DNA from: Tubiluchus corallicola
Lineage: Eukaryota; Priapulida; Priapulimorpha; Priapulimorphida; Tubiluchidae
DNA: 64,000 nucleotides
Direction of reading: 5' to 3'
NCBI GenBank assembly: GCA_030141605.1
Contig: JAQGDQ010001052.1
Span: forward strand, 1-64,000
The position numbers and the translations under genes were made by a program. A model generated the notes under the pieces. It saw only the letters and a list, made by a program, of their open reading frames with translations, had not been told where the DNA came from and ran no database searches. How positions within the stretch are numbered: the first letter of the stretch is position 1; every line of letters starts with the position of its first letter. Shown piece by piece: positions 1,601-62,747 of the stretch.

Positions 1601-1654
1601 CTTTTATCACACAAAAGCTGCATTATAACAGAGACAAAACTAAAAAAACACGTT

Positions 1655-1897: not shown

Positions 1898-2044
1898 TCA
1901 ATTTAATGATGGATTTGCACCGTTTTTCCAATGAACTTCTATATTATGCCACTTTGTCTGCAGACAGGTGAGAATGGGTGTGGAGTCCTGGACGCAGGGC
2001 ACTTCAAATTCTGACACGCAAGCTTCACCTTCGCTGTACGCAAC
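1898..2044 (-). CDS. MINDY3: MINDY3 exon 11 (last exon and stop)
   Basis: Encodes VAYSEGEACVSEFEVPCVQD, then TCLQTKW and ends NPSLN followed by TGA (1900-1898). It matches the human C-terminus, which also ends PSLN. Acceptor CTACAG at 2050-2045. The exon lies in the spacer between the two arms of a large inverted repeat. Confidence 0.93.
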   Translation of the reverse strand, partial: VAYSEGEACVSEFEVPCVQDSTPILTCLQTKWHNIEVHWKNGANPSLN

Positions 2045-5000
2045 CTGTAGGTAAAACAAAGTGTTAAAATAAAGGAAGATTAGCTGTCATTCAGAAAAAA
2101 ATTATAATGTGTGCTTGCGTAGCAAAATCATCCATAAGTTGGCAATTAAGCTTTTCTAGTTATTCACATATCCTGAGTCTCCATTTCATGAGGATCATTT
2201 TGATACCAAGTTCATCACTTTGCATTATTTATAAGCTGAGATAATCTACATTGAAGTTGAGGTGCAGGCTGCTCATTCAAAAACATAATATTGAGAAAAT
2301 CACTGTTAAAGTCAGCCATTGTTTTTTGCCACGTTTCTACAAACACTTAGCAACCGCGCAAATGTTGGTTGCTATGGACTTTACAAGAACACATTGAAGT
2401 TATGTTTAAATCCAGTAGATGGCTCTTCCTGATGAAGGTCTGGGGTTATCAGCAGAAAAAACCCAAAGCAAAATGGCTGCTTCCACACAAGCTACTATCA
2501 GAGTTTGAAAATACAAGTTTTTAACAATTGCAGTACTAGCTTTTAGCCAGAGAAATGGATATGGGGTTATAAAAGATCAATTTTTAGTATTTTCTAAACA
2601 ATTTCCTGATGTTTTGATGTTAAAATAAAACGTAGCCCATTCTGTTAATACAGATGATTTGACATTTGATGAAATTTTTGCTGCATTCTACTTTGAAGCA
2701 TCACAACATAGTTTTAACAATGCCGACTTACGAACGATTTTGGTTTGCAAACACACATTTACTCTTCTCTTCATATTAGAGATTTAGGTGATGAACGTGT
2801 TCACTCGCTATGAACGTGTTCACTCATACACCTCTTGTTTCTAGCATAAATTATTCTGAAAATGAAATGCAACATCATCTTGTTTCTTAAAGAAAAAACT
2901 AACCGCTTGACAATGTGCACTGAATTTCAATACGCACAGAAAGAATATTGAAATTACCACGCAACCTACGTGCATAAAATGCCTTGGTTAAAATGCAAAA
3001 GAAATTTGAATTATTCTTATCTTCCACTAAACAAACATCGCGGCGGACATATTTGGAACAAAATGGCGGCACTTCTGCGGTTCACTCGGCAATTCTGTTA
3101 TTCTAGCTGTGTAAATCTTTGTGTTTAATTGTGTTTACGGGAAAATTAGTCGTGGGATGAATTAGCAAAACCTTTAAAGTGCTTACACAGCTTAAATATA
3201 CCTAATTACACAGTAAGTGCTACCACTCATGATAGAATTACTAATAAGCACGGAATTCTGCAGGCATGCAATAGCTACTAAACGTCTTAATTAGCTTGTA
3301 GATTCCAGTTTTGGCTCGTTAAAATAATTACTCTGTTGCTTAGTCAGTGTTAACTAACCGAGTTGAAGATTTTTGTTAAAAATTCAAGATTTTCAAGATT
3401 GTTCTTTCGAATCAACACAAACGAAACCTGTACATTAAAAATGCAAAAATTTCGATAATTCAACTTCAAGATTATTATACTATAGTCGGTAACTGGTTTT
3501 CATTACACAGTCGGTAACAGGGATTCATTAAAAAAAACAAAAAATAGTATTAATAATCTCTCATTTACTGTTTTGGATTGTTTGTAGATGATAATAGTAA
3601 AATTGATGCTACAAAAGCACCAGGCAGAGAAAGTGTTTATGTTGGCATGGTAACCCGATTAAGCCATTTTTCCTTAATAATGAGTCGAGAGCATGAAGTG
3701 ATCACGTGTTTAAATTAATTTTACTAATTACACTTATCACAATTTTACTGCTGAAACTTTCTAACATTTCTCACAATAAGCTCAACTTTTCCGAGACTTG
3801 GCTTTTGTCTTGAAAACGTAACATCTACTACGAGTGACTATTAATGTTTAGTTAGCAGCTGTAGAGTTTGGCCTAATAGAAAACCTATTAGCGGTAAGTG
3901 CAGCATAGATACATACCTTTCTATTTTGACAAGCACGAGGCTGACCGTTGTAATGAAAGACCTTAAACGTTTCGTCGTTAGAGAAATTGGCCTTGTTAGG
4001 AAAGAAATTTGTGAGAAAACTCTGCAAAGTGATGACACCAAGTTGCTCCGGATCCAGTGTTTTCTTCATCACATCTACACTGCAAGTTTAATATGTTACA
4101 TTTATTATGAGCTGCGTGACCTTGATGTGTGACCTTGATGCATGACCTTGATGTGTGACCTTGATGCATGACCTTAATGAATGACCTTGATGTATGACAT
4201 TGATGTACAACCTTGATGTGTGACCTTGATGTATGACATTGATGTACAACCTTGATGTGTGACCTTGATGTAGGATGTTGATGTACAACCTTGATGTGTG
4301 ACCTTGATGTAGGATGTTGATGTACAACCTTGATGTGTGACCTTAATGTACGACCTTAATGCACGACCTTAATGTGTGACCTTGATGTAGGATGTTGATG
4401 TACAACTTTGATGTGTGACCTTGTTGCACGACCTTAATGTGTGACCTTGATGTGAGACCTTTATGGACAACCTTGATGTTTGACAATGATGCACAATCTT
4501 GATGTGCGGTCCTGATGTATGATCTTGATGTGTTACCCTGATGCACGACCTTAATGTGTGACCTTCATGTGTGATCTTAATGTGTGACCTTAGTGTGTGA
4601 CACTGATGTGTGACATTGATGTGTGACCTTGATAAATGACCTTGATGTAAGACCTTGATGTGAGATACAATGAGATCATACGTTCTACTCTTTTACACGT
4701 TCCACATGAATAAATTTGCTGTTGTAACATTTGGTAAGAACATAAAAAACACCACAAATCACAGTAGAGTTACTAGAGTATGAATTAATCTAATAGTAAC
4801 ACTACATTAATAACAAAGTCTGCCCTTCCCTTCCTTCGTATGGAGGATCAGAAACAAGATCCAATGTACTTAGTACATCTCCAAGTACTACTACAGAATT
4901 GTCAGTGCTACTCTATAAAAAGCTGATACAGCTAGAGAATAACAGGAGATGACAGATCAGGTACTTACTATGGAGGATCAGAAACAAGATCCAATGTACT

Positions 5001-8000
5001 TAGTACATCTCCAAGTACTACTACAGAATTGTCAGTGCTACTCTATAAAAAGCTGATACAGCTACAGAATAACAGGAGATGACAGATCAGGTACTTACTA
5101 TGGAGGATCAGAAACAAGATCCAATGTACTTAGTACATCTCCAAGTACTACTACAGAATTGTCAGTGCTACTCTATAAAAAGCTGATACAGCTACAGAAT
5201 AACAGGAGATGACAGATCAGGTACTTACTATGGAGGATCAGAAACAAGATCCAATGTACTTAGTACATCTCCAAGTACTACTACAGAATTGTCAGTGCTA
5301 CTCTATAAAAAGCTGATACAGCTACAGAATAACAGGAGATGACAGATCAGGTACTTACTATGGAGGATCAGAAACAAGATCCAATGTACTTAGTACATCT
5401 CCAAGTACTACTACAGAATTGTCAGTGCTACTCTATAAAAAGCTGATACAGCTACAGAATAACAGGAGATGACAGATCAGGTACTTACTATGGAGGATCA
5501 GAAACAAGATCCAATGTACTTAGTACATCTCCAAGTACTACTACAGAATTGTCAGTGCTACTCTATAAAAAGCTGATACAGCTACAGAATAACAGGAGAT
5601 GACAGATCAGGTACTTACTATGGAGGATCAGAAACAAGATCCAATGTACTTAGTACATCTCCAAGTACTACTACAGAATTGTCAGTGCTACTCTATAAAA
5701 AGCTGATACAGCTACAGAATAACAGGAGATGACAGATCAGGTACTTACTATGGAGGATCAGAAACAAGATCCAATGTACTTAGTACATCTCCAAGTACTA
5801 CTACAGAATTGTCAGTGCTACTCTATAAAAAGCTGATACAGCTACAGAATAACAGGAGATGACAGATCAGGTACTTACTATGGAGGATCAGAAACAAGAT
5901 CCAATGTACTTAGTACATCTCCAAGTACTACTACAGAATTGTCAGTGCTACTCTGTAAAAAGCTGATACAGCTAGAGAATAACAGGAGATGACAGATCAG
6001 GTACTTACTATGGAGGATCAGAAACAAGATCCAATGTACTTAGTACATCTCCAAGTACTACTACAGAATTGTCAGTGCTACTCTATAAAAAGCTGATACA
6101 GCTACAGAATAACAGGAGATGACAGATCAGGTACTTACTATGGAGGATCAGAAACAAGATCCAATGTACTTAGTACATCTCCAAGTACTACTACAGAATT
6201 GTCAGTGCTACTCTATAAAAAGCTGATACAGCTAGAGAATAACAGGAGATGACAGATCAGGTACTTACTATGGAGGATCAGAAACAAGATCCAATGTACT
6301 TAGTACATCTCCAAGTACTACTACAGAATTGTCAGTGCTACTCTATAAAAAGCTGATACAGCTACAGAATAACAGGAGATGACAGATCAGGTACTTACTA
6401 TGGAGGATCAGAAACAAGATCCAATGTACTTAGTACATCTCCAAGTACTACTACAGAATTGTCAGTGCTACTCTATAAAAAGCTGATACAGCTAGAGAAT
6501 AACAGGAGATGACAGATCAGGTACTTACTATGGAGGATCAGAAACAAGATCCAATGTACTTAGTACATCTCCAAGTACTACTACAGAATTGTCGGTGCTA
6601 CTCTATAAAAAGCTGATACAGCTACAGAATAACAGGAGATGACAGATCAGGTACTTACTATGGAGGATCAGAAACAAGATCCAATGTACTTAGTACATCT
6701 CCAAGTAATACTGCAGATATGAATCCATTTCCTGCAAATATTCAAATCACAACTACAGTCGGTAATACAATGTTCACGGGATGCAAATATTTTTACCTAT
6801 TAAGCGTGTTTCGTACTATCCATTACGTATATTCCTACTAATGTTTTTTCAACGATAAAATAGCAGTTACACATAGGGTTATCATACGTCCGGATTTCCC
6901 CGGACACATCCTCTTTTTGGGCCTCTGTCCGGGCGGGTTTTCAAAAAATCGGCAGTTTGTCCGGGTTTTGCCTCAATCCGTAAGTATGTACGAACGTTAC
7001 CAACTGCAGAGGCGTACGACAGGACGAGACAAAGAAAAGCTCGTTAATTTTCAATACAAGATGTTGCTAACATCTCAAAATGCAACCCTTGTAAAAGCTT
7101 TGTGTACGTATTTACTGAACAAGAGTAAGCGATGCGCACATCGCTACGTGTCACACGAGTGACTTCGGTCTTCGGAAAAGCAATTCGGTCTTTGGAAAAG
7201 TATTCTTGGTCTCAGCCTCGGGCTCAGTCAAGTTCAAGCCTAACTGTTTCTGAGAGCCAAGAAGAAGCAGGCGACTGACAGTTGCAGTGTGTTAATGTTT
7301 TTTGCAGTATAGCCATTTGGTATTGCTATTAGAATACATGTAGGCCTATTTGTATAATTTGAATTTTATTTTGCATTGTTTTAATAGACCCTAGACTGGT
7401 CATTTTTGCCTACTTACAAGTGTGCGAAAAACTGTCCTCTTTTTCAACTCGGACAATATGGTAACCCTAATTATACGACACCTGCAGCCTTTACATTGGT
7501 TACCTGTTAATCCGAGAACATCATTTAAGTTAGTTTAACCCCCTCTTTCCCACAAGTACAATGTTGTCAGTTGGTGTAGTACAGTAGTAACAAGCCTGCA
7601 AGCAAGAGGGTTAGTGGTGCCAGAGAGTCTGCAGTATACAGCTTTCTGCTACTTTAGTATTACATGCAGGCAGTAAGAAAAATAGGTGATTTAAACTACG
7701 TAATGGTAAATTGCAATCAGAGTGGGAAGCCAAAGTCTTTTCAAAAACTAATAATTCCAATTGGCGCAAGTGGCAAAAAGGCAGTTTTCTAGGTGATCAC
7801 TCATCCAATTGCTGACCAAACTCACCACTGATTAACTTGAGTCAATACGATCAATCGGGGCCACCCAGCTGTTTGTAATTGCGCCCAGTTTAAAAAGATT
7901 TTATTGTCACTTTATGTCAACTTTCCGTGTGAAATATCATAGGCGAGTTGTGGTGATTCCCAGACAAACAACCCGAGTTCAAAACCGGCTGGCGCATTTT

Positions 8001-11000
8001 TTTGCCAATCATTAATTCTTTTTACTTAAAAGAGAGTAAATTCTTCGAAGTTTCTCTAAATTTCAAAGGAAACTACAGTCGCCTAGAATCAATCTATGAA
8101 ACAATAAAGAAGCAATTTACCTTCCGGATCAAAACTTTTGAAGACTCTTTTAGCTGCTTCTTCTGGAGTTTCTGGAGCTACAAGAGATTTGTCCTGAAGA
8201 AAAAGAGGCAACATTTCATGATGACATTAAACTGAAACTGAAACTTGACGACTTGGCAAGCAAGAGGAGGCAAATTAGAGTATGTGATTAGTAATGTCCC
8301 AGTGAGATGATTGTATGCAAGATTCTTTGTGTTACCTGCTCAATTCACCTTTGATATTTACCTGTGTAATGTCATGTGACTCGTTAGTATCAGAGCTGCA
8401 AGTCTTTACATTGTGCGCGCTTTTGTTGTGCACATGGCAGTTGCTGTAGGTCAAAGGTTAAGTGTACCACATCAACGAATCTTAACTACAACTGTCACGT
8501 GATGTGTGGGTAAAGCGAAGCTGTCTGTCGTATCAGTTCAGTATCTTCAGTTGTTTTACGTGGACTTTACTTAATTACGCATTAGTCTGTGCACAGAGTG
8601 ATTTACTAGCAGGATCTTGCTTGGGAACAAGAAAAATGAACTAGGTAAGGTTCTAGCTAGCTGTTAAACTGTTACTATTACAACAGCATGGAGTGCGAGG
8701 CTTTGCCAATTGTGCACACACACTGTCCGGTACACTCAACCTTTGACCTTTTCATGATCATCATCAATCGCTGAACCTGTGAAAAGGCTTATTGTGCAAT
8801 GATTCAAGGATTTAACATCAAGAATCAAACAAAAAAATCTTTGACTAAATTTTGCAATACCCCAGACACAAGAAATTACTGAATGAAGCAAAGTAGGATT
8901 GTTGTTAGCGGTAGGGTTAGGGTTGGGAAACTATGGCCATATCACATTGAAAACAAAGGTTCTCGTCTGATCACCGAAGTTAAGCAACGTAGAGCCTGGT
9001 TAGTACTTGCATGGGTGACAGCCTAGGAACACCAGGTGCTGTAGGCTTGCGGGAAGCCCACACTGTATCTCGACACTAGGCGGAGGAGCTACACAAGCAG
9101 CCAACGGCTAGAGGGCAGAGGAGGTCAAGTGACCCAACGGTCATGTTTAGAGGAGTAAACCTTCCAAATCAGGAGTGGACTCCGGCACCTCTTGCAGCCA
9201 ACCTGGTGCTAAACGTATCGCTCCGCTTTCCTCTGGACTACACCAGGGAGGAAGAGAGGGGGTTCCTGTTGTCTGGGCAACTCAGGATCTCCATACACCT
9301 TGCCCAGGCTTGCGCCCTGGAGACGTTCAAGGATCGCACTGCTCAGCCACAGTCGACGCTGCAGCTCCATCAATGTGATCAATAACTGACACTCTTGGCG
9401 CACACTCCATTGTCTTCCGAGACAGAAGGATGCCAACAACAAGGGTTAGGGATGGTGTTATGGTTACAAATGGGTTAAGGTTAGAGTATTTATATTGTGT
9501 GGGGAATTGTAAACTCCTTCAAAATCGTTTAAATGATAAACGTTTAAAAAAACCGTAATTCTTCTACTGAAAAATCACTGTTCCATAAACAAGGAAGCAG
9601 TTCTCACTAAGCAGCAAGATGGACGTGCTTACCTCAGAAAACACGATGGTCAAGTGCGTTTCACTTCCCATCAACCAGATTGGAAACTTTGGACACTTGA
9701 GAAACCAACCAACCTGCTTAAACGTGAATGAAAACATCAAAGTCAACTTAAAATCCAACTCTCATTACGAATATTCAATTCATTTTATCATAAACTTTCT
9801 GTAAAACTTGTTTCTTTTGGTTTTTTATCACTTCCTTGTTAGCGAAATTAAATTTTTACGAACTGCAATTTTCGTTGTGCGACACGACTGACGTAACGAG
9901 TACAGTCACGAGGTCACCAAAGATCGGTAAACAAACATCGGAAACTAAAGACGCTTTCTGTACCTCATACGTCATTCTCGCTGACTCGCGTAAAAGACGC
10001 CAAACACGGCAATCTTTATGACTTTCACGCGTTCGAAATTCGACAGAAAAAGGTAAGTTATTTAATTTGTAAGTTTCTTTTGCTTAATAATAACTATGAA
10101 TTCTTTGTGTAATCATAATTATGTATTAAAAAACTTTAATGTGTGTTTGATATAGGCATTTAAAATGAATGATGTTGCAATCAACAAACAACACAGTATT
10201 GTCTAAATTGTGTATCTCATAATTATACACTAATACATACAATCATTGTTTTTACCTCGCAATAACGTAAGTGTTCCAGCAGTGTGAGAAAACCAACTGT
10301 TGATTGTCTAGATATTCCTCGCAGCTCTGTAAAAAAAATCAATAAATTCCAGCAAATGCTTTTATTTTCCAAGGTTCTTGGCAGCGTGAACAAATGCGGG
10401 GTGCTGCACCACCAAGAAACACATGCTTTTAGTATGAAAATGACAGAAAATCATTTCATTTCGTACCAGTCGCAGCGCGCAGCTAAAATTACTGGGGGGG
10501 GGGGGGGCTGTTTCAGAAACTGCTTCAGTACTGCTTTAATACTGTGTAAAACAAAACAGACGTGAAATTTTATTGTTGTAATTTTAGTGAACAAACATAT
10601 GAAAATTTATACATGAATTTGACAAACTTGTAAACAAAAAGCATTTTTTTCTTACGAATAGCCTAAATTGTCACAGTTGAAGAATATGCTGGTACACGGA
10701 TTTAAAGCACGTGACAACTGACAACACATACAGCGTGTTATCTCAGACATACACTCATGGCTGCATACCCACAACAGCCAAATACCATGGTGCTCGAGCT
10801 GTGAGCACCAAATACACCACTGTGCTGGGCTGTGAAGCAAACAGTACTACCCTCACGCGCTCTGGTTTCGTACAACTGCAAAACACACTGCACTGGGCTG
10901 TGAAACAAACAGTACTACCCTTACGCGCTCTGGTTTCGTACAACTGCAAAACGCACTGTGCTGCGCTGTGAAGCAAACAGTACTACTCTCACGTGCTCTG

Positions 11001-28400: not shown

Positions 28401-31400
28401 TATGCCCTCTATTTTACTGGCAAGACATTTTGCGTGAAAGCTAAGAATATTAGTTATAAATAAATCATGTATTGTGTCACTTTTGCACCTTGTAACTTTG
28501 TGTTGCAGTAGTAACTTAATTGTTTCTGCATTAGTGAGAATTACATTGTGTCGTTTTATGCTGTTTACACATTGCAATAACTAAATAGTTTTACTACAAG
28601 TCGTAGGATTATGCATGTACATTCGTATCTCGGTTTGCCGGACAGAAGTGGGGAGACGTCAGTCCGAATTTGCCGATTGTTTGTATTTACCATTACTAAG
28701 CTCATGCAGTAGCTACCGTGTATTAGACTCACGATAATGTAGAATCCATCGCCTAATTGTCTCAAAAATGTCTAGTACGGGTCTCTCATATGCAAACATG
28801 CAAAAGTGTATAAAAACTGTCAGCAATTGACTCAAATAACTCTGCTAATTAAAATCACTTAAACAAGCTGACATACAAGCTACACACGTGTCGTTACACG
28901 CTGCTTGGTTACACTGATGTAATGATGTAAACAAAGTGATGACCCGCCAACTAGCGATAAGCTCGCGAAATATCGGACTGTGTCCGTAGTATGCAGGACT
29001 TTTTAATGGTCCAGATTTCATCCGGTTTTTCCGCTGTCCATAAAAGCGAGGTCCGGCAAACCAAGTTATGAGTGTATTGGAAACATTCGTTACTTTGTTG
29101 TTACTAAACTACTTTATTTCTGTCTTCAGGGCTGGCAGGAATGTAGAACAGCCAATATGTGCTCATACTACAACTCATTAGCTGCAGCAGAGAGATGCAG
29201 AATTGAAAATTTAGAACCGTTTGACGAATATGAAGAATGGCACCTTAAGTGCAGTCATTACGTCGTGACGGTAGCGGCAAACGGAAACGGCTGTTCGTTG
29301 CTTCATGTAAGTTCTGGTAAGAAAGTGATCAGTTATCATGAGTTTTGGTTTGTTCGTTGCTTCATGTAAGTTCTGGTAAGAAAGTGATCAGTTATCACAA
29401 GTTTTGGTTTGTTCGTTGCTGAATGTAAGTTCTGGTAAGAAAGTGATCAGTTATCATGAGTTTTGGTTTGTTCGTTGCTGCATGTAAGTTCTGGTAAGAA
29501 AGTGATCAGTTATCATGAGTTTTGGTTTGTTCGTTGCTGCATGTAAGTTCTGGTAAGAAAGTGATCAGTTATCACGAGTTTTGGTTTGTTCGTTGCTTCA
29601 TGTAAGTTCTGGTAAGAAAGTGATCAGTTATCATGAGTTTTGGTTTGTTCGTTGCTGAATGTAAGTTCTGGTAAGAAAGTGATCAGTTATCATGAGTTTT
29701 GGTTTGTTCGTTGCTTCATGTAAGTTCTGGTAAGAAAGTGATCAGTTATCACGAGTTTTGGTTTGTTCGTTGCTTCATGTAAGTTCTGGTAAGAAAGTGA
29801 TCAGTTATCATGAGTTTTGGTTTGTTCGTTGCTTCATGTAAGTTCTGGTAAGAAAGTGATCAGTTATCATGAGTTTTGGTTTGTTCGTTGCTGCATGTAA
29901 GTTCTGGTAAGAAAGTGATCAGTTATCATGAGTTTTGGTTTGTTACTAACTGAAGTTGTAGCTTAAGCGACATTTCTTCTGCTGTCTTGATTCTTCCTTT
30001 TGTTTCTCTTCTTTTTGTTCTTGTTCTTGTGATTGTTCTACTTGCCGTTCTGGTGATTTATTTACGATACATTTCAATGGATTTCAGTTCGTGTTTTAAA
30101 CCTTTTTTGGAAGCCTTTCCTAGATGCTTTCTTCGCAATATTAATTTACTAAATGTTTTTTTAATAAATAAACTTTTTATGTCAGAATAATAGGTGTGCG
30201 GTAAAAATGGCACAGGTAAAAATGACACCAAAAAATACACAAATGGAAAAGTAAGGAAAAATATGTGTCACGTATATTATTTTGATGCAAGTGATTTCTA
30301 TAATAAAACTAGAATGTGCTCTATAGATCTCTGCCAAAGCTATACAGTTTTAAACTTATTCTTCTGATTCTTTTGATAAAAAAATTAACACACACACATA
30401 TATATAAACAAGCAAACATACAAGAATGTATCTGTATTGGTATTATATAGACTAGCAAAATATTTGTTCATTAAATAGATTTATAATCAATAATGCGTAA
30501 ATATTCCACGTAGTGTTTAAAATATCTATCTTTTTCATCATTGATTTCCGCCATGGTAATAGACTGACAGATACATACATACCAAGTTAACTTATAAGGC
30601 TATACAAATTATTAAGCAAAGGTTATAGACTGTGCCATTTTTACCGTGGCAGTTTTTTCCTGTGCTCTTTTTACCTGTGCCATTTTTACCTACATTTGTC
30701 AGAATGGATTTTTTTTCTGATATTAACGCTTTTATTGTTGCATAAATTCATCATATCGTCTCTTTCATGTATGTTTTTCTGTACTGCACTGGTATGTTAA
30801 TTGTGTAAGTTTTGCGCTATCTAAATGTTTGCAATTATGGCTAGTTTTATGCTCTATAATTATTTCATGTATATTATTTCAGGAAATTCCTCAAACTACT
30901 CTACTAAATTATGAGCCATACACAGAGAATAAACTCCAGAGGTGGCAGTTACGTAGTCATTCGGAATTTCAAGCAAAAATGTTTGGCCACTGCAGCGTAG
31001 AGATTGATGGGGTAGCATTCGTTGTGGGTGGCTTTGGAACTGTGGGGTCTGATAGTGAAAAACACCAGAGATTATCTAATGTATTGGCAGTGGAAATGCA
31101 AAGTGGTTCTTGGACCAACTTGAGTCCTCCAGTAAGGGAATGTGGTATGAAAATCAACTGTTCTATAGTTAAAGTCCCGTCTAGACTATCATGCACGCAG
31201 GATGATATGTTGCGCATGCGAGTGAATGACACTCAAAAGCGAGGATGTTGACCTGCCCGAATGACGGCTTTCCATGATACCAGTGAAATTCAATGTGCAC
31301 ATGTGTTCCCGATAACTTTTTCCCAGTTAAGATTTGCCCAATCAGAGGCCCAAACTTTGTCACATGACTATTAATGTTGTTGTAGAGTTCTGTTTTCAAT

Positions 31401-36665: not shown

Positions 36666-36689
36666 TTGAAAGTGCTGAGTCAATTTTCA

Positions 36690-42103: not shown

Positions 42104-42402
42104 TGTATAGCCAGTCAAATGGGAAGGGTTGGCGAAGAACATACGTTATCGAATTAGTCTATTTATAATTTTTTTGCATGAAGAGCCAATGATCACTGAT
42201 CAAATATAATAATTTTGAATTATATACTGTAAAAGACATTAGGAACAAGTCTTCATGTCTAAATGAGCAAAAACAAAAAAAATGTACTAGCATGCCAAAT
42301 ATGACATAATTTGCATGTGGCTTTAATTTTAGTAATAACTCAATAAACCAAAAAACTAAGAAAAATAAGGAAACATGCATTTTATGAACGTATTAAAATG
42401 AT

Positions 42403-42771: not shown

Positions 42772-42949
42772 ATGATGTAAACCAAAAATTTATGTAAAAT
42801 CATAACCAAATATAAATGCAATAAATCATGTTATGAAATACGTAGTATGCAAACTATTGATACAGATGATAACAAAAACAAAACAAAACAAAACAAAACA
42901 TAAATGATTAAATATAGTAATGTAGCGTGGCAGAATAGCACATTAATTA

Positions 42950-43745: not shown

Positions 43746-44018
43746 ATTAAGATACCAAGAATATTAATATAATAGTAGATTGATTGAAAAATAAAACAAT
43801 TTTATGCATGTAATGTTTATGTGTAAATTGATTCTGTAACCATATATAAAGTAAACATTTACCTGAAATATAAGTCAACAGAATTTCAAATAAGAAAGGA
43901 ACATTTAATTTTAAAAACGAAAATCTCATCACCATGACAATTGAGACACGTTTGTAAAGGCTGCCGATTTAAGTTAAAATTGATTTAATCTTTTTTAAGG
44001 TTTTTGATTTCGTCTAAT

Positions 44019-44150
44019 ATGAAGGCTCTTCCGTCGTCCACAGTTCAACTTATTGGAAGTGGACAGGTCATCACAACGGTCAGCAGCATTGTGAAGGAAT
44101 TATTGGAAAATTCTTTAGATGCACAAGCAACCACTATTGAAATAAAATTG
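44019..44150 (+). CDS. PMS1: PMS1 exon 1 (start, motif I)
   Basis: [20 protein letters not shown], then [20 protein letters not shown]. The first ATG in the MutL frame at the conserved position. Donor GTATGA, phase 0. Confidence 0.95.
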
Positions 44151-45698: not shown

Positions 45699-45736
<38 letters not shown>

Positions 45737-48700: not shown

Positions 48701-51700
48701 GTAAACAAACATCGCTAACTAAAGATGCTTTCAGTAGTGTTTGGGCTTTACGGTGACAAAAACAAAGTCATCATTTCTTGCTTAGCATAACAGTTTATTG
48801 TTTGTATACAATCTTCACGTCATGTGCCCCTTAGTCATTTACTTCATATCTGACACTGAGACGCCATTACCCAAAATTATACATTTTATCTGAAACGAGA
48901 TATATGAATTTCTTTAATAAACTAATTCATTTCTTATCAAAAGATCGATTACGATTACGTGAAATTAATGAGAGACTTACAGTAAATAACTAAATAAAAT
49001 TTACATATATCGTTGGCATTAAATCGTGAGTTACACAGAAACACGTCATCACATGAACACATTGAAACTTGAATGACCGAAAATTGACTAAGATGCAAAT
49101 ATTGAAGCCAGATGTCGCCACTTGTAACTGTAAAACACTATATTAAATTTAACAAACAAAAAACCTTGACATGTAGGCTGTACGTCATTCTCGCTCACTC
49201 ATGCCAAAGACGTGAAACGTGACGATCTTTACGACATTGCAAGCGTTCGAAATTCACCAGAAAAAAGTTTGTTATTTAATTTAAAGCCTCTTTTGTTCAA
49301 TAATAACTACGAATTCTTTGTATAATCGTAATAATGTGTTAAAAAAGTTCAGTGTCTGTTGGGTCTATATAGATGTTTAAGCATATATTCTTGGAGAAAG
49401 AGGTGGCAACAGAATCTGTCTCTGTTTTTTACCAGGAACGTGTGTACTGGTCACCAGGTTATTCCACAATCTTCCCGTAAGAAAACAGTTTTGCACAAAC
49501 AAACAGAATTTGTATTTGTTTTTTACCAGGAACATGTGTACTGGTCACCAGGTTATTCCACAATCTTCCCGTAAGAAAACAGTTTTGCACAAACAAACAG
49601 AATTTGTATCTGTTTTTTACCAGGAACGTGTGTACTGGTCACCAGGTTATTCCACAATCTTCCCGTAAGAAAACAGTTTTGCACAAACAAACAGAATTTG
49701 TATCTGTTTTTTACCAGGAACGTGTGTACTGGTCACCAGGTTATTCCACAATCTTCCCGTAAGAAAACAGTTTTGCTCAAACAAACAGAATTTGTATCTG
49801 TTTTTTACCAGGAACGTGTGTACTGGTCACCAGGTTATTCCACAATCTTCCCGTAAGAAAACAGTTTTGCACAAACAAACAGAATTTGTATTTGTTTTTT
49901 TACCAGGAACGTGTGTACTGGTCACCAGGTTATTCCACAATCTTCCCGTAAGAAAACAGTTTTGCACAAACAAACAGAATTTCTGTCTGTTTTTTACCAG
50001 GAACGTGTGTACTGGTCACCAGGTTATTCCACAATCTTCCCGTAAGAAAACAGTTTTGCACAAACAAACAGAATTTGTATCTGTTTTTTACCAGGAACGT
50101 GTGTACTGGTCACCAGGTTATTCCACAATCTTCCCGTAAGAAAACAGTTTTGCTCAAACAAACAGAATTTGTATCTGTTTTTTACCAGGAACGTGTGTAC
50201 TGGTCACCAGGTTATTCCACAATCTTCCCGTAAGAAAACAGTTTTGCACAAACAAACAGAATTTGTATTTGTTTTTTTACCAGGAACGTGTGTACTGGTC
50301 ACCAGGTTATTCCACAATCTTCCCGTAAGAAAACAGTTTTGCACAAACAAACAGAATTTCTGTCTGTTTTTTACCAGGAACGTGTGTACTGGTCACCAGG
50401 TTATTCCACAATCTTCCCGTAAGAAAACAGTTTTGCACAAACAAGAAGAAACGAAGCACAGAATTGAACAAGGTCATAGAGCTTCTTCGTGCTTACGGTC
50501 TGGTTTACCCGCGAGTTCGTTTAATTCTGAGACACGACAGGGACGTTGTTTGGCAAAAAGATGTTTTTCACGACACGCGATCGTCACTATCGTCGTTGCT
50601 TGGTGTTGACCTGGCAAATAGTTTAGAGCATGTCAAACTGTGCAGAGATCAGGTTTGTAATATTTGATCTCATTGAGGTAAGATTTGAGTTTGGCTTGTC
50701 GTCAGGTAAGGAAGTACAATAGGTGACATTTATTAGACTCACGGTTAATTGACTCAATCGCTTAATTGACTCAAAAACATCTAGTACGGGCCGCTTCTGT
50801 TCAAATGTACATAAAAACTGTTGGTAATTGACTCAATATTTTTACTTCATATACTTAAAATAAGATACTTGTGTGTGCCCAAAGAGCTTTTATTGCTTGC
50901 ATATCATCTTTATATTGATTTTATGTATTAAATATTGACTATAATATACATATAAACAGTCATGTTAAGTACAGCTTTGTTTGTAAGCAGATACAATACG
51001 TTTATCACATGCACTAATATGTTAGCTTAGCGGGTTTGCTTTGAATCTGTCACCCGCTTGTCCACTGCAATTAACCTCGTTGTTTCTGGAAGCTAAACAT
51101 TTAATCACTTGACCAGCGGTTTGCTTTGAATCTGTCACCCGCTTGTCCACTGCAGTTAACCTCGTTGTTTCTGGAAGCTAAACATTTAATCACTTGACTA
51201 GCGGTTTGCTTTGAATCTGTCACCCGCTTGTCCACTGCAGTTAACCTCATTATTTCTGGAAGCTAAACATTTAATCACTTGACCAGCGGTTTGCTTTGAA
51301 TCTGTCATCCGCTTGTCCACTGCAGTTAACCTCGTTGTTTCTGAAAGCTAAACATTTAATCGCTTGACCAGCGGTTTGCTTTGAGTCTGTCACCCGCTAG
51401 TCCACTGCAGTTAACCTCATTGTTTCTGGAAGCTAAACATTTAATCACTTGACCAGCGGTTTGCTTTGAATCTGCTACCCGCTTGTCCACTGCAGTTAAC
51501 CTCGTTGTTTCTGGAAGCTGAACATTTAATCACTTGACCGGCGGTTTTGCTTTGAATCTGTCACCCGCTTGTCCACTGCAGTTAACCTCATTGTTTCTGG
51601 AAGCTAAACGTTTATTCACTTGACCAGTGGTTTGCCTTGAATCTGTCACCCGCTTGTCCACTGCAGTTAACCTCATTGTTTCTGGAAGCTAAACGTTTAT

Positions 51701-54700: not shown

Positions 54701-57700
54701 TTGTATAGGCTTCACACTGAATACGTTTGTTCAAACATTTCAAAAGCTTTTAATGAAAGTTTCATAAGGAAACCATTTGTTTAAGCATTTCAAAGCTTTC
54801 TAGAATACATCTGACTAATCTTGAACAAAACGAACGTTTCTAGTACGGGTTGTTCACACTGAATATGTTTACTCGTGGATTTCTAAACTTCCAGTTTAAG
54901 TTTCACAGCGAAAACGTCTACTTTCAAATTTACTGTTCATTGTTGTGCAATAATTTAGCTTTGACGTTGAGTAACAACTCAAGACATTCTACTGGATAAA
55001 CGTTTAGTATTAATTTATTGAATTTTAAGCACCTGGGTGCAAACTTTTCTGTGCAACCTGTAGATCGGTAGTTAGACTAACATGTCGTTAATTAAGTTTT
55101 TAACTTATTATTTAATTATTAGAAATACTTTGGCATTATCGTATGTGTTAAAATATATACATTTAACCATACTTCAAAATGATATGAAAAATCATCCTGT
55201 TTTGCTTTAAATGTAATAACTTGCTTGCATTGAAAATCACCATAGATACAGGGATGAGAATTTTCCGTGGATACGCGGAATTCCGAGTTTTTGGAAGACC
55301 AGTAGTGCCACTTTTGTAAATCGCGTAAATTCGTTGAGAAAATTTTTACGGACCCAGTACATTATTTCGCAAGCTGGCCGCTAGGTGGCAGGCCGTCACT
55401 TTGTTTACATCACGTACATCAGTGTAACCACGTGTATATCTTTATGTGTAAAAATATAGAATCAATTGTGTGGAGTTATTTGAGTCAATTGCAGACAGTT
55501 TTTATAAACTTTTGCATAAGAGCAGCCAGTACTTAGGCGTTTTTGAGACAATTAGGTATCATGTATCCTTGATAGTTGGATATTTTAAATTATGCATGAA
55601 ACAAGGTAATTGATATTGTAAGTCCACTTAGAGGCTCTCTATGGCCACAAAATTGCAATTTGTTGCTGGTTCCAAGGGGGTTTCCCTTGAACCCCATTGG
55701 GGAAGGCCCCCAAACCCCCGGCCTGTTTCAGAGTTTTTTGCAATTTGTCATTCTCATCCCTGTAGATGTTGAAAATGGGTGAAATTGATAAAAACCCATT
55801 ATCTTTAAAATCTTGTATCTAATCCATTCCATGAACTTAAATAAATATTCATAATTTTAGGCGTTAAAGCGGCACTTTTTCTCAGTTCACTCGTGCAAAG
55901 TAGGTAGCTCTTTGCGACATCCCGTTGCGCTACTTTTCATCACAGTGCCACCTGCAGGCGTGGACGTGAACTTAGAACCGAACAAAACTAAAGTGCTTCT
56001 TCAAGAAAAGGTAATGTGTTGGACTATTAAACGTTCTTGCATTTTCATAAGCACAATTGTTCATAGTGTTCTAAGTGTATTTTGCTTGATCAATTTGGCA
56101 TTTGATTGGTCGGTTTGTTGATTAGCTTGTTTATACATTAAAACATATTGTAAATATAGGTATTAGGATAAATAGATAAAATAGATTGAGAAAGTATGCT
56201 AACTAATTTGTTAAAATAGATTCTTCTTTCGATGAGTTTTTTTATTACTGCTAATTGTAAATTATTTTATGAAATTTGTTTTGTACTGATAAAGTCCAAT
56301 CAGTGAAAATGAAGCAAAATTTTCACTTAGGTGCGTATTGATGTATCTCAGAGTATAAAGAGTCAAGAAAGTTGGTGAAAAGGCACCAGTTCTTTGAAAA
56401 CATGCTCAGGGGAGCAGTTGCTCCCCTTACTCCCCCTTAATAGCTACGCCCCTGGTATAAACTGCAGCAAGGAACTGTTACATTATTAGCGTGGCATTGA
56501 AAATGATGATTTTGTTACAGGACGGTGTTTTTGCTATGTTTGAAGAATGTTTAGTCAAAGTGTATGGACACCCTGCTGTGAAAACATCTGTGCAAGGTGC
56601 TAGAGCAACTTCAGTAGAAGTGGAAGAAGCCACTTTCAAGTGCAGTGCATTTAGTTTGAGTAGTGACCACACTGACCACACTCTCCGGGATGATGCAACT
56701 ACTAGCAATGATGTCGAGGCAGGTGCTAGTGTTCAAAACAGAACCGACGTTACACGGTGTGATGTTGCGACCGCTATAGATTTGCAACATGGTGTCGAGG
56801 CAGGTGCTAGTGTTGAAAACAGAACCGACGCTACACGATGTGATCTTGCCACCGCTAAAGATTTGCATAATCTTGTTGAGACAGGTACTAGTGTTCAAAA
56901 CAGAACCGACGCTACACAGTGTGATCTTGCCACCGCTAAAGATTTGAAAAATGTTGTTGAGAAAAGTAGTTCTTTGAATAACGCAAGCAGGAGAGAAGAG
57001 AATCGACAATCGTTATGCAAAATTGCACTTACAGACTCTCACACGGATGCGAAAAAATATGAAGTTGACGAATATAGACCACTCTGTGATTTTCCGTGCA
57101 GTTTTGACGACGACTTAGTGGAAGATTTGACTCTAGAAGAAGATGATTTATTGAGAAACGTGTCAGACGTTCTCGAAGAAGCAGCGTATTTTGAAAAACC
57201 TCGTGCTGAGATGACGGAAAATTGTGCAGGCGATATTGGTGATGTTTATGCTAGTGGGGCAGCAACTGAGTGCGAGTTTCATAATAGCATTAAAAATACT
57301 GAAGTAATTAGTGATGCTTATCACAGTGGTGAAGCCAGGTTCAATGTCCAACTAAACACAACTAAAACATCCTCGCATTCGTTAGCAGATTCTGAAGCAG
57401 CAGCCCCCGCGCTGTCGGTTGACCTTGAATCTTGGACTTGCGGACGTGCATTTGTGGATCAAACTAAGCAACCAGTGGAGGTATGAATAGTTTTTGTAGG
57501 AACGTGTGAAGATGGACATGATAGAGACGAAACCACTTTGATGGCTTCTTTTCTCACCTGTATTTAGGCTTGTTACTGAACAGCAATGCTTCCATACATG
57601 GTGATATGTACCTGTATCATTATAATATGGATAATTAATATTTACATGCTTGAGCATTTGCTGATAAAAGAAATGTGAAATCATTGAAGCGTACAGTAGA

Positions 57701-60700
57701 TTGTACTGTAGATACGTAACAATCAATGCAGCGAGCGTACCATTAGTTCACTTAATGAGCTAAATCAGCAAAGTGTTAACTCTTTCGGGACAGCACCATT
57801 CAAAATTGGTCTTATGAGACCTATGACTTTTGTACTACTGTATGAGCACAGACATAACTAAATGATTACAAATTAGGTACTGTTCTGTTCAGGAGAATCT
57901 CTGCTATCCAATCATGCTATTTGTTTAAACATTTATAAGTGATTTAATTGGATAAAATTAAGAAAAACACGCCCATTTTCAGGCTCTCCAACTTAGCCTA
58001 TTGAGTAGCTTAGCCTGGTGTACACTTGTGTGATCTCACACACTATTTTATTGATCACCTGCTTGCTACAGTCCAGAGAAATGTCTGCTGTACAGAGTTC
58101 CAGGAAAACCTAACCGATCATCCTAGGAGAAATTAAGATCATCTCATCTTTTAACCGGAATTTCTAATTAAAAACAGAGCAGACTTGAGGTCAAAGTGTT
58201 TCAGAGTGTTGTGTCTCTGGATAGTTGAAATTTTCTGCATTAACCAATTTTGTACAAGTGATACTGTACATTGTTACAGTGCAAAGACTGCAGTTACTGG
58301 CAGATTTGTTCCATTCTTTGTCAAAAATCAGTTTTAGTTTGTCTAGGATAAGCAAATGCATTTCATATATAATTTTGCATGAAAATCCATCGTGTGAGGA
58401 GTAGAAACCTACAAAAGTTATGGAATATAACGTCATCGCTGCTTAGTGAGAGCACTTTTCATGAACCCGTGTAAAATTCAGCAAACTCTTACAATCCTGA
58501 AGGAATTAAAAAAGGCTGACCTGTAACGTGAATAAGTTAATTAGTTAACTACATTTTTGCATATAAACTATTGAAATGATAAACCTGAATCTGAAAATGC
58601 AATAGGATCTTTTAATTTAAAGTATTGAAATGGTTTGCTTTTCTGATGGATTACGCTGTAAACTTTACACACTAATGAGTGAAAATTGAATACCATGTTG
58701 AGTTTTTTAGCATTTACCATTCACAAAATTGATTGTCGACAAATATATTTAGCATTTTATTTATAAAGCCTGCATAAATTAACTCGCGTATCGTGATACA
58801 TATCATATCATGAGGTTCGTATCGTGATACATATCATATCATGAGGTTCGTATCGTGATACATATCATATCATGAGGTTCGTATCGTGATACATATCATA
58901 TCATGAGGTTCGTATCGTGATACGTACGTGTGTCATGACCTAAGTGTATCGTTACAGTCTTTAGACAGGGACTAATTTATTCATTTTTTGTTTATGACTT
59001 AGCCTGTTAAAGTTTTCACTTCGGATGCAGCGCCAATCAAACGTCTTCCTTCGTCTCCGTCTGACGGGAACGCTTTGAAGAAACAAAAGATCAATCGAAG
59101 CCAGACAACTTTGTTTGAGTCGTTTAATAGAGAAAGTATCAAGCAGTCTCCGTCGTCGTACATTTCGTTTTGCAATCATACCCGTCGCAAAAGTACGTTT
59201 ATTTCTAAAATATCTCAGCATCAATTTCTGTACGTAGAGCTTCCGTATTAATATTCAAGTAATGCAAGTCCTCGCTTAACAACGCTAATGGGTTCCAACA
59301 AAATGTGATGTTAAGCAAAACGTCATTAAATGAAGCCAAGACTTCCGTAGAAAGTAATGTAAAACAATTGGGATACGTTCCGGAGACAAAAATCAATCCT
59401 GCTTGACTCATATTTGTTAAACATTCTATGAGTTTTATTCATATTTCTACTGATTAATGTCTTCCTGTTTGCCTAAAACCACCTATATATTTTACTTACC
59501 AATACCTAGCTATAGCGGTTTCTATAGTAGGTTAACGTTTAAGCCTAGCCAGGGGTTAAACAATAAACACTGAAGAGTCTAACCCTGGTGTGACCTTGAG
59601 AATTTTACCTACATACTTAGTCTGGTTGCTATAGCAACAGGTTGCAGGCAAAACTGCCCGCTGGTCACTTGATACTTGATACAAACCGCTAGTAATACAG
59701 TAGTAACATAAGCAGTCAGTAGGGAAACAAAAACATGTATAATAATTGCTCTGTTTACGTTATTAGTGCATTTCTAGAACTGAATAATGCGATAGGTACT
59801 GTTTTAATGCATCAAATTAGGTAAAAATTTTGTTGCTCAAATAAAAATTTGCCTTGAACAAAGTAAAAAGTTCGTTGTTAAAGTGAGACGTGTGTCGTTT
59901 AGTGAAAAAAGGGGTCAAATGATCGGCGTCATTAAAACGAAACATCGCTAAACGGGCAGTCATTAAGCGAGGACTTACTGCAGTCATCTTGTAAATACTT
60001 TCATTTGTTAATGCATTTTCTAATTTCTTTTAGGGATTCCAGCTTCCAACGCTTTTTTTATTTATGAAAATCCTCTAACTACACATTGTAAAATCAATTT
60101 GCCACATTGCTAAAACACTTGTCATTTATTTATTAGTAATAGAGGAAAACCTGGGTGCCGACTTCAAACAAATCGGAAATCTTCTGAACAAAAAATGGCA
60201 AGAATTATCCGACGATGAAAGAAAGTCTTACAGAAATTTACCCAGCCAAGGCTTGCCAGGGTGAGTACTGTTCACATGTGAAGTGATGCCGGGGTGAGTA
60301 CTGTTCAAACGTGAAGTGATGCCAGGGTGAGTACTGTTCAAACGTGAAGTGATGCCGGGGTGAGTACTGTTCAAACGTGAAGTGATGCCGGGGTGAGTAC
60401 TGTTCACATGTGAAGTGATGCCAGGGTGAGTACTGTTCACATGTGAAGTGATGCCGGGGTGAGTACTGTTCAAATGTGAAGTGATGCCAGGGTGAGTGCT
60501 GTTCAAACGTGAAGTGATGCCAGGGTGAGTACTGTTCAAATGTGAAGTGATGCCAGGGTGAGTACTGTTCAAACGTGAAGTGATGCCAGGGTGAGTACTG
60601 TTCAAATGTGAAGTGATGCCAGGGTGAGTGCTGTTCAAACGTGAAGTGATGCCAAGGTGAGTACTGTTCAAACGTGAAGTGATGCCAGGGTGAGTACTGT

Positions 60701-62747
60701 TCAAATGTGAAGTGATGCCAGGGTGAGTACTGTTCACATGTGAAATTTTAATGTTGGTGTACGCAGTTATCAATGTCCCGCTTACATAAATTTCTACTAT
60801 TTACAACATTAATCTGCTTGCCCAAGAATCATCTAAGCGGTAAATTGCAAAAACTCTTTCTCTCTCGCGTATGTTACAAGAATTCCGCCATGTTGGACAT
60901 TCTTGCTGGCGTGTGCTAGATTTGAACCACGCCTCTTACTCGTGTAATACTTGGAGTTTGCACACTTGGTGACTCCAAAATGTGTGAGTAAACGTGATAT
61001 GATTCGGAGGCGATAATTGTCTCGTAGCTCTTTCTTTAAAAATTGAATTTTGTTGTTCAAAAACTTCTTCAAACATTCAAAAGGGTTCATCATTTATTCA
61101 CTTACTGAAGAAATACAAAGTTGAGTGAATTGCTATGATGATATAACGGGTTTAGAGTTGGGCAATTTCTTCATATTAGTTCATCATGTATATTTGATGT
61201 TTTGTTATATGTATGACGTCACCGGGAACGGTTAACCTGCCACATTTAATAACATTTAAACGGTTAGCTGAAAAGCTTAACCATCTCACCTCTAAGATGA
61301 GGCGGCTTTCTGGGTGTTAACAAGATTTTTTGTTTGTTTCACAGCTGCAGTAAAAAGAAAAGTCGTACTCCGACCAGCACAAAGTTACTTAAACAGAAGA
61401 ATTCTAAGAAAGCGCCACCTGAACATGTAACAGAACAACTTATTTTACTTTGATTACAGTTTTTGTGTTTGAATAGCAATAGGTTTAGACCGTGCGCTAG
61501 AAATAGATCTCATAAACAAAAATTATGTTGTTAATCAAATAGTTATCTCTATTTTGAAGATAACTCCTTCACTTTTGACTCATCTTTGCATCTAACTTTA
61601 TTATTTTTGCTGTTTTTGAGGCTTTCATTTTGGTAGCCCTCGTGTAAGGAACCAAGTACTGGGTTATATCAAATCTCTAAACAAACTTTTTGTGGTACTT
61701 GCACTTTAACTACCACGATTGTAATGGTTTGATACATTATATACAGCATATATACAATTTTACACCTACGTAGAGCAAAAACTTGGGCATTTATAACTAA
61801 GGGCAGTAGTATCATCATGTAGAAAAAATTCAGTGTTTGTAGACATGTTTTTCATGAATCTGATCTGTATTTGTGTGCTTGAATAGCAGTATCGTCCACA
61901 AGTCGGCAATTGAGTTTTTCTAGTTATTCACGGTATCCTGAATCTCCATTTCACGAGGATCATTTTGATGCCAAGCTCATTGCTCTATGTTGTTTCTAAG
62001 CTGAGATAATCCACGTTGAAGTTGAGGTGCAGGCTGGGCACTGAGAAACATGATCTTGAGAAAATCACTGTTAAAGTCAGCCATTGTTTTTTACTTAGCA
62101 ACCGCACAAATGTTGGTTGCTACGGACTTTGCAAGAACACATTGAAGTTACATTTAAATCCAGTAGATGGCTCTTTTTGACAAAGGTCTGGGTTTGGCAA
62201 CAGAAAAAACCCGAAGCAAAATGGACTGCTTCCACGAGCTACTTCACATTTGAAAATACAAGTTTTTCACAATTTCAGTACTAGTTTCTAACCTGAAAAG
62301 TGGGTACAGGATTTTAAAATTTGATTTTTAGTGTTTTTTGAACATTTTCTTGATAATTTGATCCTAGTTTGTTTTATAAAAAACAAAAAAGACATTTGAC
62401 CAAAGTTTTGGTTCATCCTACTTTCAAGCATCATAACGTAGTTTTAACTATGCTGACTTACGGACGGCTTTGATTTACAAGCACACATTTCGTTCTTCAA
62501 TCACAAGTGATAATTGATAAATATGTTTTAGAAATATTTCTAACATTATCTTTAATATTTGTTTCAGTGCTAATTAAATTTTATTTTGTTGATTTTAGAG
62601 AGGAACTAGACCGATTATCGATTTACTCAAATCTGCTGCAAAGACTGGTCAGCCAATCGCAAACAAGTCACTGCTTCGAAAAGTAATCAGCATTCCATTT
62701 TTCGCGGTCAGCTTAAGAGAAAGGTTAAAAGAACATTCTAGTCGTCG
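44019..62747 (+). CDS. PMS1: PMS1 MutL-homologue mismatch-repair protein (3' end outside window)
   Basis: MutL-family GHKL ATPase that pairs with MLH1 in mismatch repair (family knowledge). Twelve exons in window join to 2522 nt (840 codons plus 2 bases): 44019-44150, 45036-45169, 47024-47175, 50378-50652, 53758-53877, 55861-56010, 56521-57480, 59003-59192, 60034-60087, 60137-60260, 61345-61426, 62599-62747. Seen: [10 protein letters not shown] with Glu27 and Asn31 (ATPase motif I), VRDNGRGI (motif II, residues 54-61), [13 protein letters not shown] (motif III, 90-97), [21 protein letters not shown], a long low-conservation linker, and an HMG-box-like segment from [10 protein letters not shown] to [12 protein letters not shown]. 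The HMG box and [10 protein letters not shown] start identify PMS1 rather than PMS2 or MLH1. The C-terminal dimerisation domain must follow beyond 64000. Two splice borders are tandemly amplified. Confidence 0.95.
44203..44929 (+). mobile_element. piggyBac-like MITE family F, copy 2
   Basis: Same block order as 57781-58505 (TTCAGGAGAATCTC, ATTTATAAGTGA, TTTTGCATGAAAATCC). The right end CAGTCCTGAAGGAAT is followed by TTTAA. In PMS1 intron 1. Confidence 0.7.
45036..45169 (+). CDS. PMS1: PMS1 exon 2 (motif II)
   Basis: [20 protein letters not shown] and [23 protein letters not shown] is the ATP-binding motif II. Acceptor TTGTAG, donor GTAAGT, phase 2. Confidence 0.97.
45706..45738. repeat. (ATT)n microsatellite
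   Basis: Uninterrupted ATT triplets in PMS1 intron 2. 45170-45700 before it shows nothing else recognisable. Confidence 0.9.
45838..46883. repeat. 92-bp minisatellite in PMS1 intron 2
   Basis: About 11 copies. The unit contains TTGTAATTACATTACAA (near-palindrome) and TATCTATAACAGGTATCTTA. Alternate units differ at AAAACG, AAAGCG and AGGGCG. Confidence 0.97.
47024..47175 (+). CDS. PMS1: PMS1 exon 3 (motif III)
   Basis: [20 protein letters not shown] and [13 protein letters not shown]. Acceptor TTGCAAG, donor ACAG|GTAAAA. A 103-bp array starts 70 bp after the donor. Confidence 0.95.
47244..47870. repeat. 103-bp array derived from the TTAGGG-core element end
   Basis: Six copies containing AAGTTTACAATTCTCCACAT, ATTTAAATATCCTAACCCC and CCAGGGTTCACCCAACTC, related to the complement of the right end of 23322-23540. 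It starts 70 bp after the exon 3 donor. Confidence 0.93.
47896..48242 (+). mobile_element. Possible TIR element family J, copy 1
   Basis: Shares GTTGGTGTACGCAGTTA, CAATGTCCCGCTTAC and CTATTTACAACATT with 60750-61292. Ends resemble TGAGAYRGTTAA in inverted orientation. Class unknown. Confidence 0.55.
48546..49372 (+). repeat. Dispersed repeat family D, copy 2, with insertion
   Basis: Homologous to 9755-10150 but split by an extra segment of about 440 bp (roughly 48736-49176) of unknown origin. In PMS1 intron 3. Confidence 0.7.
49405..50445. repeat. 94-bp acceptor-spanning array (PMS1 intron 3/exon 4)
   Basis: Eleven CAG acceptors at 49433, 49527, 49621, 49715, 49809, 49904, 49998, 50092, 50186, 50281 and 50375. 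Each unit is 27 intron bases (with TCTGTTTTTTACCAG) plus 67 exon bases, and also carries an in-exon GTAAGA. Units at 49715-49998 and 50092-50375 share the same variants (TTGCTCAAAC, an extra T, TTTCTGTCTG), so a 377-bp block of four units was itself duplicated. Confidence 0.97.
50378..50652 (+). CDS. PMS1: PMS1 exon 4 (reiterated acceptor)
   Basis: [20 protein letters not shown], then [13 protein letters not shown] and VVWQKDVF, matching [14 protein letters not shown] and AVIWQK. Only the last of 11 acceptor copies (CAG at 50375) continues into the full exon. Donor CAG|GTTTGT, phase 0. Confidence 0.95.
50711..50830 (-). mobile_element. Family H MITE fragment
   Basis: TTATTAGACTCACGGTTAAT and AACATCTAGTACGGGCCGCT match internal parts of 28620-29074. 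Ends missing. Confidence 0.6.
51031..52575. repeat. 85-bp minisatellite in PMS1 intron 4
   Basis: About 18 copies containing GGTTTGCTTTGAATCTGTCA and CCACTGCAGTTAACCTC. Variants GCTACCCGC and GTTTATTCAC are shared by neighbouring units. 52580-53338 after it shows nothing recognisable. Confidence 0.97.
53339..53651 (+). mobile_element. TIR element family B, copy 3
   Basis: Right end CTGTGAAAAGGCTTATTG and core CCCAAGCAAGATCCTGCTAG match 12524-12918; the left end is truncated. In PMS1 intron 4. Confidence 0.7.
53758..53877 (+). CDS. PMS1: PMS1 exon 5
   Basis: [16 protein letters not shown] and [18 protein letters not shown], matching GFLPK and RSFIFINSRPV. Acceptor AAACAG, donor GTAGGT. Confidence 0.93.
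53990..54105 (-). mobile_element. pogo-like MITE fragment
   Basis: CCCATTTAGCGACAGTCTGTTTT and the GAACATTTGACATC block correspond to the complement of the right part of 59261-59983. Confidence 0.55.
54300..54745. repeat. 163-bp tandem repeat in PMS1 intron 5
   Basis: 2.7 copies starting at 54301, 54464 and 54627, with CAGAGACTAAGGAGTGAGTT and CATTTCATGTCAGCAACGTT. A few point differences. Confidence 0.93.
55249..55762 (+). mobile_element. TIR element with CAGGGATGAGAAT ends
   Basis: 13-bp inverted ends CAGGGATGAGAAT / ATTCTCATCCCTG. A C/G-rich segment with CCCCAAACCCCCGG near the right end. A family H fragment (55345-55610) is nested inside. The flank shares TAGAT but no clean octamer, so hAT assignment is tentative. 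Confidence 0.7.
55861..56010 (+). CDS. PMS1: PMS1 exon 6
   Basis: [32 protein letters not shown] then [12 protein letters not shown]: the end of the MutL N-terminal domain with the VDVNL.P.K motif. Acceptor TTTTAG, donor GTAATG. Confidence 0.95.
56340..56453 (-). mobile_element. Transposon end fragment (CAGGGGCGTAGC)
   Basis: The minus strand begins CAGGGGCGTAGCTATTAAGG then GGGAGTAAGGGGAGC, typical of hAT-type termini starting CAGGGG. The other end is not found in the intron. Confidence 0.55.
56521..57480 (+). CDS. PMS1: PMS1 exon 7 (linker exon with 27-residue repeats)
   Basis: 320 codons. Begins [16 protein letters not shown], still conserved, then a disordered-looking acidic linker. Three copies of an 81-bp unit ([20 protein letters not shown] type) run from about 56713 to 56955. 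Acceptor TTACAG, donor GTATGA, phase 0. Confidence 0.9.
57781..58505 (+). mobile_element. piggyBac-like MITE family F, copy 3
   Basis: TTAA (57777-57780) then CTCTTTCGGGACAGC at the left; CAATCCTGAAGGAA then TTAA (58506-58509) at the right. TTAA flanks and TTAACYCTTTC-like ends suggest piggyBac. 725 bp, non-coding, PMS1 intron 7. Confidence 0.78.
58787..58925. repeat. 31-bp tandem repeat in PMS1 intron 7
   Basis: About 4.5 nearly identical copies of GTATCGTGATACATATCATA then TCATGAGGTTC. The unit includes the near-palindrome GTATCGTGATAC. Confidence 0.95.
59003..59192 (+). CDS. PMS1: PMS1 exon 8
   Basis: [20 protein letters not shown] and [25 protein letters not shown] resembles a short protein-interaction motif, an inference. 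Acceptor GACTTAG, donor GTACGT, phase 1. Confidence 0.85.
59261..59983 (+). mobile_element. pogo/Tigger-like MITE
   Basis: Ends AAGTCCTCGCTTAACAACG and the complement of GTAAGTCCTCGCTTAATGAC; this CCTCGCTTAA-type terminus is characteristic of pogo-like elements. It fills most of PMS1 intron 8. Confidence 0.7.
60034..60087 (+). CDS. PMS1: PMS1 exon 9 (HMG box, first part)
   Basis: 54-bp exon encoding [17 protein letters not shown], the opening helix of the HMG box. Acceptor TTTTAG, donor GTAAAA, phases 1 and 1. Splits the box. Confidence 0.88.
60137..60260 (+). CDS. PMS1: PMS1 exon 10 (HMG box, second part; reiterated donor)
   Basis: [20 protein letters not shown] and [14 protein letters not shown], the remaining HMG-box helices. 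Only 49 bp from exon 9. Donor CCAGG|GTGAGT, repeated 14 more times every 33 bp; reading past it gives GGG TGA at once. Confidence 0.92.
60254..60745. repeat. 33-bp donor-spanning array (PMS1 exon 10/intron 10)
   Basis: TGCCAGG|GTGAGTACTG-type donors at 60261, 60294, 60327 and every 33 bp to 60723: 15 in all, two with GTGAGTGCTG. Each unit repeats about 7 exon bases and 26 intron bases. The period is a multiple of three, so the minus strand shows a spurious 181-codon open frame. Confidence 0.96.
60750..61292 (+). mobile_element. Possible TIR element family J, copy 2
   Basis: Homologous to 47896-48242 at its left part, longer internally, ending near AAGCTTAACCATCTCACCTC. In PMS1 intron 10. Confidence 0.5.
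61345..61426 (+). CDS. PMS1: PMS1 exon 11
   Basis: [27 protein letters not shown], a basic linker. Acceptor TTTCACAG, donor GTAACA. Read-through of the donor also gives a short open tail ending TTTGA at 61450-61454. Confidence 0.8.
61871..62489 (+). mobile_element. Non-autonomous TIR element, family A, copy 2
   Basis: TGTGTGCTTGAATAGCAGTA at the left; TTTACAAGCACACA at the right. Shares GAAGTTGAGGTGCAGGCTG and CACTGTTAAAGTCAGCCATT with 2107-2761. In PMS1 intron 11. 61455-61870 before it is unrecognised. Confidence 0.75.
62599..62747 (+). CDS. PMS1: PMS1 exon 12
   Basis: [20 protein letters not shown] and [20 protein letters not shown], matching PKLDELLQSQ and VQIPFSMKNLK. Acceptor GATTTTAG, donor CGTCG|GTAAGA, phase 2, so further exons are required to the right. 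Confidence 0.92.

Follow-up and report, generated by a model that had tools for sequence, protein, structure and literature searches.

Tandem arrays that cross the border of a coding exon, and carry a splice site in each unit, were found in three genes of the window (the whole stretch of 64,000 nucleotides analysed here). They are not local to it and recur in many other genes. The arrays are best explained as ordinary minisatellites formed by blind tandem duplication and expansion, which selection filters towards growth into the intron; a probability of about 0.78 is assigned to this reading.

The window is part of a 343.5-Mb assembly of 2344 contigs from an animal, as its genes indicate. Pfam and PDB matches were used to place PMS1, MINDY3, and LCMT2, and the exons were further checked against human protein queries in tblastn. 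Both approaches locate MINDY3 on the minus strand and LCMT2 and PMS1 on the plus strand. The gene structure used for the simulations comprises 31 exons with 57 internal borders. Two further Pfam matches, Lysostaphin_N and Sortilin_C, were rejected as spurious because both sit within tandem arrays. According to TRF, 17 sizeable tandem arrays make up 23% of the window, and most of them are away from exon borders. One array of 40 copies of a 47-bp unit (36690-38571) starts about 25 bp past the LCMT2 stop codon and hence lies in or near the 3' UTR of that gene. A degenerate TTAGGG-like array (23386-23502) represents an interstitial telomere-type repeat. Other repetitive sequences include a LINE-like element between MINDY3 exons with a reverse-transcriptase open reading frame of 707 aa (17243-19366, minus strand), and a large interrupted inverted repeat (139-3537) whose arms are 88-100% complementary and which overlaps the 3' end of MINDY3. 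At 8929-9047, a 5S rRNA match (86.9 bits) is fused to other sequence and is perhaps a 5S-derived repeat.

The four arrays crossing coding-exon borders in MINDY3, LCMT2, and PMS1 (arrays A to D, Table 1) were all present where the original prediction had put them, as seen by TRF and by listing donors and acceptors. The exon part of each unit ranges from 7 to 66 bp and is accompanied by the splice site. All four are minisatellites by their TRF unit lengths and copy numbers (130 × 14.5, 59 × 11.1, 94 × 11.0, and 33 × 14.9, with matches of 94-99%), and all four resemble the human IFI6 case in that the splice site lies within the unit and one of the end copies forms the actual boundary of the exon. 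Array A contains 14 donors (6658..4968) at a spacing of 130 bp. Its fifteenth copy is exon-only and breaks off right at the exon boundary, with no donor behind it, so that the extra donors number 13 rather than 14. The counts for the other arrays agree with the prediction: 11 donors in array B (29307..29897, spacing 59 bp), 11 acceptors in array C (first exon bases 49436..50378, spacing 94 or 95 bp), the last of which is the real one, and 15 donors in array D (60261..60723, spacing 33 bp). Units and genes differ, and the four arrays arose independently, as had been proposed. By eye, direct repeats of 4 bp (TGTT and AACA) were noticed at the ends of arrays B and C, respectively, and no clear pattern of microhomology was seen at the ends of the other arrays.

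Table 1 Border-crossing arrays, the coding exons they adjoin, and an exonic repeat in the window
Feature	Position	Strand	Composition	Source
Array A, MINDY3	4839..6717	-	130-bp unit: 51 bp from the exon end, 79 bp intronic	
MINDY3 coding exon (NGFISAVLLGDVLSTLDLVSDPPY)	6659..6731	-	copy 1 of array A forms its 3' end	tblastn
Array B, LCMT2	29292..29944	+	59-bp unit: 15 bp from the exon end, 44 bp intronic	
LCMT2 coding exon	29131..29306	+	copy 1 of array B forms its 3' end	tblastn
Array C, PMS1	49408..50444	+	94-bp unit: 28 bp intronic (with poly-T and CAG), 66 bp from the exon start	
PMS1 coding exon	50378..50652	+	the final copy of array C forms its first 66 bp	Pfam/PDB match, tblastn
In-frame repeat in a PMS1 exon	56707..56961	+	81-bp unit (27 codons), about 3 copies, entirely within the exon	TRF
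Array D, PMS1	60254..60744	+	33-bp unit: 7 bp from the exon end, 26 bp intronic	
PMS1 coding exon (start approximate)	60141..60260	+	copy 1 of array D forms its 3' end	

The reading frame separates the terminal copies from the decoys tested. In four of four arrays, the terminal copy next to the exon body joins the neighbouring exon in frame; the MINDY3 exon, for instance, continues into the exon at 4080-3921. Every decoy tested leads to a frameshift or a stop codon. With the decoys of array A the stop spans the junction codon itself, and any one of those in array D gives a stop 1 nt beyond the normal junction. The stop follows 60-81 nt beyond the junction in array B and 137-512 nt in array C. 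The expectation that one terminal copy preserves the gene model while the others are decoys was therefore borne out. Together with exon definition, the decoy stops suggest that the spliceosome uses the exon-proximal site.

How such arrays may form can be outlined as follows. Tandem duplications, some 20 to 130 bp long, would arise blind to gene structure, and the duplicated units would then expand via slippage or unequal exchange. Where the founder straddled an exon border by accident, the splice site would be copied too. Survival would be restricted to arrays growing into the intron, since the copy at the exon body then stays intact and the extra copies leave with the intron. This presupposes that the spliceosome chooses the exon-proximal site, as exon definition would have it. 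The 81-bp repeat within a PMS1 exon would be a product of the same duplication process, filtered for frame. The duplication mechanism is inferred. Array C shows a 377-bp higher-order period in TRF, which fits expansion and is typical of unequal exchange. Moreover, the abundance of arrays in the window, the location of most of them off borders, and the one in-frame exonic array all speak for a blind origin.

Several border-crossing arrays were identified in other contigs. Donor arrays lie at exons of an EAAT/SLC1 gene (contig C620; PF00375 match, 1.2e-20), of Smoothened (C32; PDB match, 1.8e-24), and of mitochondrial HSP60 (C29, locus L086, around 99722; GroEL match, 1e-18). The copies of the HSP60 array, read by eye, spell the exon-end residues VITVK with two silent differences. 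Further donor arrays belong to a navigator-like exon (C34; sub-threshold Pfam match, E 0.0035) and to an exon on C5 that is taken to be phosducin-like, in part on a weak match (E 5.7). On C1289, a donor array is found at an unnamed exon that continues in frame beyond the array. Arrays on C24 (a signal-peptide exon) and C922 are probably at exon ends as well. Among the genome loci examined, border-crossing arrays have units of 18-130 bp and up to 48 copies. Two samples were centred on conserved genes. The first consisted of 46 myosin-head exons (46 kb) taken from a family search regardless of repeats; three sizeable arrays occur near them, one of which crosses a border, namely a donor array on C2144 with a 36-bp unit and 9.9 copies. 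The second, 19 chaperonin loci (L043-L061), yielded one sizeable array, off any border. The window is far richer in arrays than these neighbourhoods, which are themselves exon-centred and in conserved genes.

A dispersed element with an internal 42-bp array carrying AGGTAAGT was observed at loci L090 and L091 (C17 and C38). This element (C17, C38) and a myosin gene (C917) are present as inverted duplicates, each within one contig, possibly an assembly palindrome. These inverted segments with identical arrays or genes hint at assembly trouble, and it could be argued that the array copy numbers as such are artefacts of assembly. The assembly was searched for a second haplotype that would allow alleles to be compared; none was found, the PMS1 exon being single copy there. 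Against an artefact, the copies carry distinct variants and higher-order structure, the unit differs from gene to gene, and the same structure appears in many contigs. An assembly origin is considered very unlikely. The arrays being real in the assembly and recurring elsewhere, this genome tolerates decoy splice sites, as the original prediction had offered as one option.

Another explanation is that the extra splice sites are useful, strengthening or regulating splicing or producing isoforms, and are kept by selection. In its favour, almost every copy in the four arrays of the window has preserved GT and AG. Young arrays retain GT throughout, and it is invariant in seven arrays (chance product 0.011), nearly all of which were found via a GT-bearing motif; this invariance was rejected as a signal of selection and attributed to ascertainment. 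The high identity of copies can likewise be ascribed to youth or homogenisation in addition to ascertainment. In the myosin array on C2144, which was found without a donor motif, GT is lost in 6 of 10 copies and kept in 4 of 10, and the copies of the Smoothened array decay distally. In the blind-origin account, the decoys are not maintained and decay with age. As every decoy tested would, moreover, disrupt the protein, selection for useful sites is judged very unlikely. Neither GT loss, distal decay, nor the silent differences in HSP60 call for a decoy function, and the decoys appear to be neutral.

Whether arrays prefer splice borders bears directly on the blind-origin reading. When the founders of the 17 window units were placed at random, 0.98 border crossings were expected and 4 were observed (P(>=4) = 0.013, uncorrected for these arrays being the reason why the window was chosen). 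This founder excess counts against a blind origin. It could instead point to a lineage-specific process that favours duplication at borders, such as breakage or slippage between donor-like motifs in the course of transcription-coupled replication. The window and the myosin sample together give 5 border founders against about 1.3 expected (P = 0.012). When whole arrays were dropped randomly in the window, 7.5 border overlaps were expected, so arrays generally avoid exons, as selection would require. The window does show the predicted excess, but it was selected on that account and holds far more arrays than unselected exon neighbourhoods.

A motif test covered the genome, with donor motifs only, tandem triples or pairs, and reversed motifs as controls. 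AGGTRAGT occurs 30067 times against 20540 for the reversed motif (ratio 1.46), and CAGGTAAGTA 1363 times against 775 (ratio 1.76). In tandem, the difference is larger than these single-motif ratios, with 2072 rows against 268 for AGGTRAGT triples and 17 places against 3 for CAGGTAAGTA pairs, as a border-favouring process would predict. The raw excess was nevertheless rejected as a measure of enrichment, because the counts are swollen by microsatellites, by arrays of great length, and by dispersed families with 20-, 26-, and 42-bp units. Array-level counts and the reading of flanks were used for this reason. Flanks were read at one place per array, and dispersed families, transposon-like repeats, and microsatellites were excluded by judgement. 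Real or likely exon ends were found at 8 of 18 non-dispersed donor-motif arrays, namely those on C620, C32, C29, C34, C5, C1289, C24, and C922; in the AGGTRAGT subset the proportion was 4 of 5, which counts against blind capture. From the reversed control and Markov expectations, 24-49% of single motif occurrences are real donors, and blind capture would accordingly place 5.8 to 7.4 arrays at exon ends (P 0.19 to 0.48). The motif is taken up into arrays at real donors at about the same rate as in other places, and blind motif capture suffices. Contigs C1-C48 contained 5 donor arrays and 2 control arrays, which likewise speaks against a border-favouring process.

A preference for splice borders beyond chance is thus not supported by the motif-matched count in these small samples, and a process directed at borders is regarded as unlikely. 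The original prediction is partly supported: the arrays recur outside the window, but a process favouring borders, with junction arrays above chance, is not supported, as the genome motif scan gives no enrichment beyond the matched expectation. A bolder statement can be made about the lineage, namely that junction arrays exceed the blind prediction several-fold and affect about 1% of splice borders, each with 5 to 48 competing near-identical sites. We hold this to be doubtful. If true, the genome would amount to a natural collection of many splice-site competition experiments, each of which the exon-proximal site has to win.

The arrays are of wider use. An intact protein results from the exon-proximal copy alone, which makes them a natural experiment on spliceosomal choice between many identical sites in succession. 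They are also a warning for gene predictors and domain searches, as exon fragments present 10 to 48 times in introns can mimic exon duplication.

In the literature searched, the coverage of which is partial, no report of many border-crossing arrays in one genome was found. In the human gene IFI6/G1P3, alternative donors are reportedly used to some extent. The present arrays involve many genes and units of 18-130 bp, where IFI6/G1P3 is one human gene with a short unit. Both have a tandem array repeating a splice donor at an exon end, a likeness that follows from the title of a 1995 study. According to this title, an interferon-induced human transcript obtains multiple splice donors from a minisatellite (cited in PMC2572611). 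With this title and a potato duplication (PMC4974935), the view that no described system matches does not hold. Large minisatellite regions in invertebrate introns are known from earthworm metallothionein genes, and the parts of that source consulted do not report them crossing a splice border (PMC12783039). In the potato RdRp gene, a tandem duplication across an intron-exon boundary made a new intron; as here, the duplication runs across a splice border, so that splice signals are copied as well (PMC4974935). The potato duplication has two copies and created an intron, whereas the arrays described here reach up to 48 copies and their gene models need no new intron.
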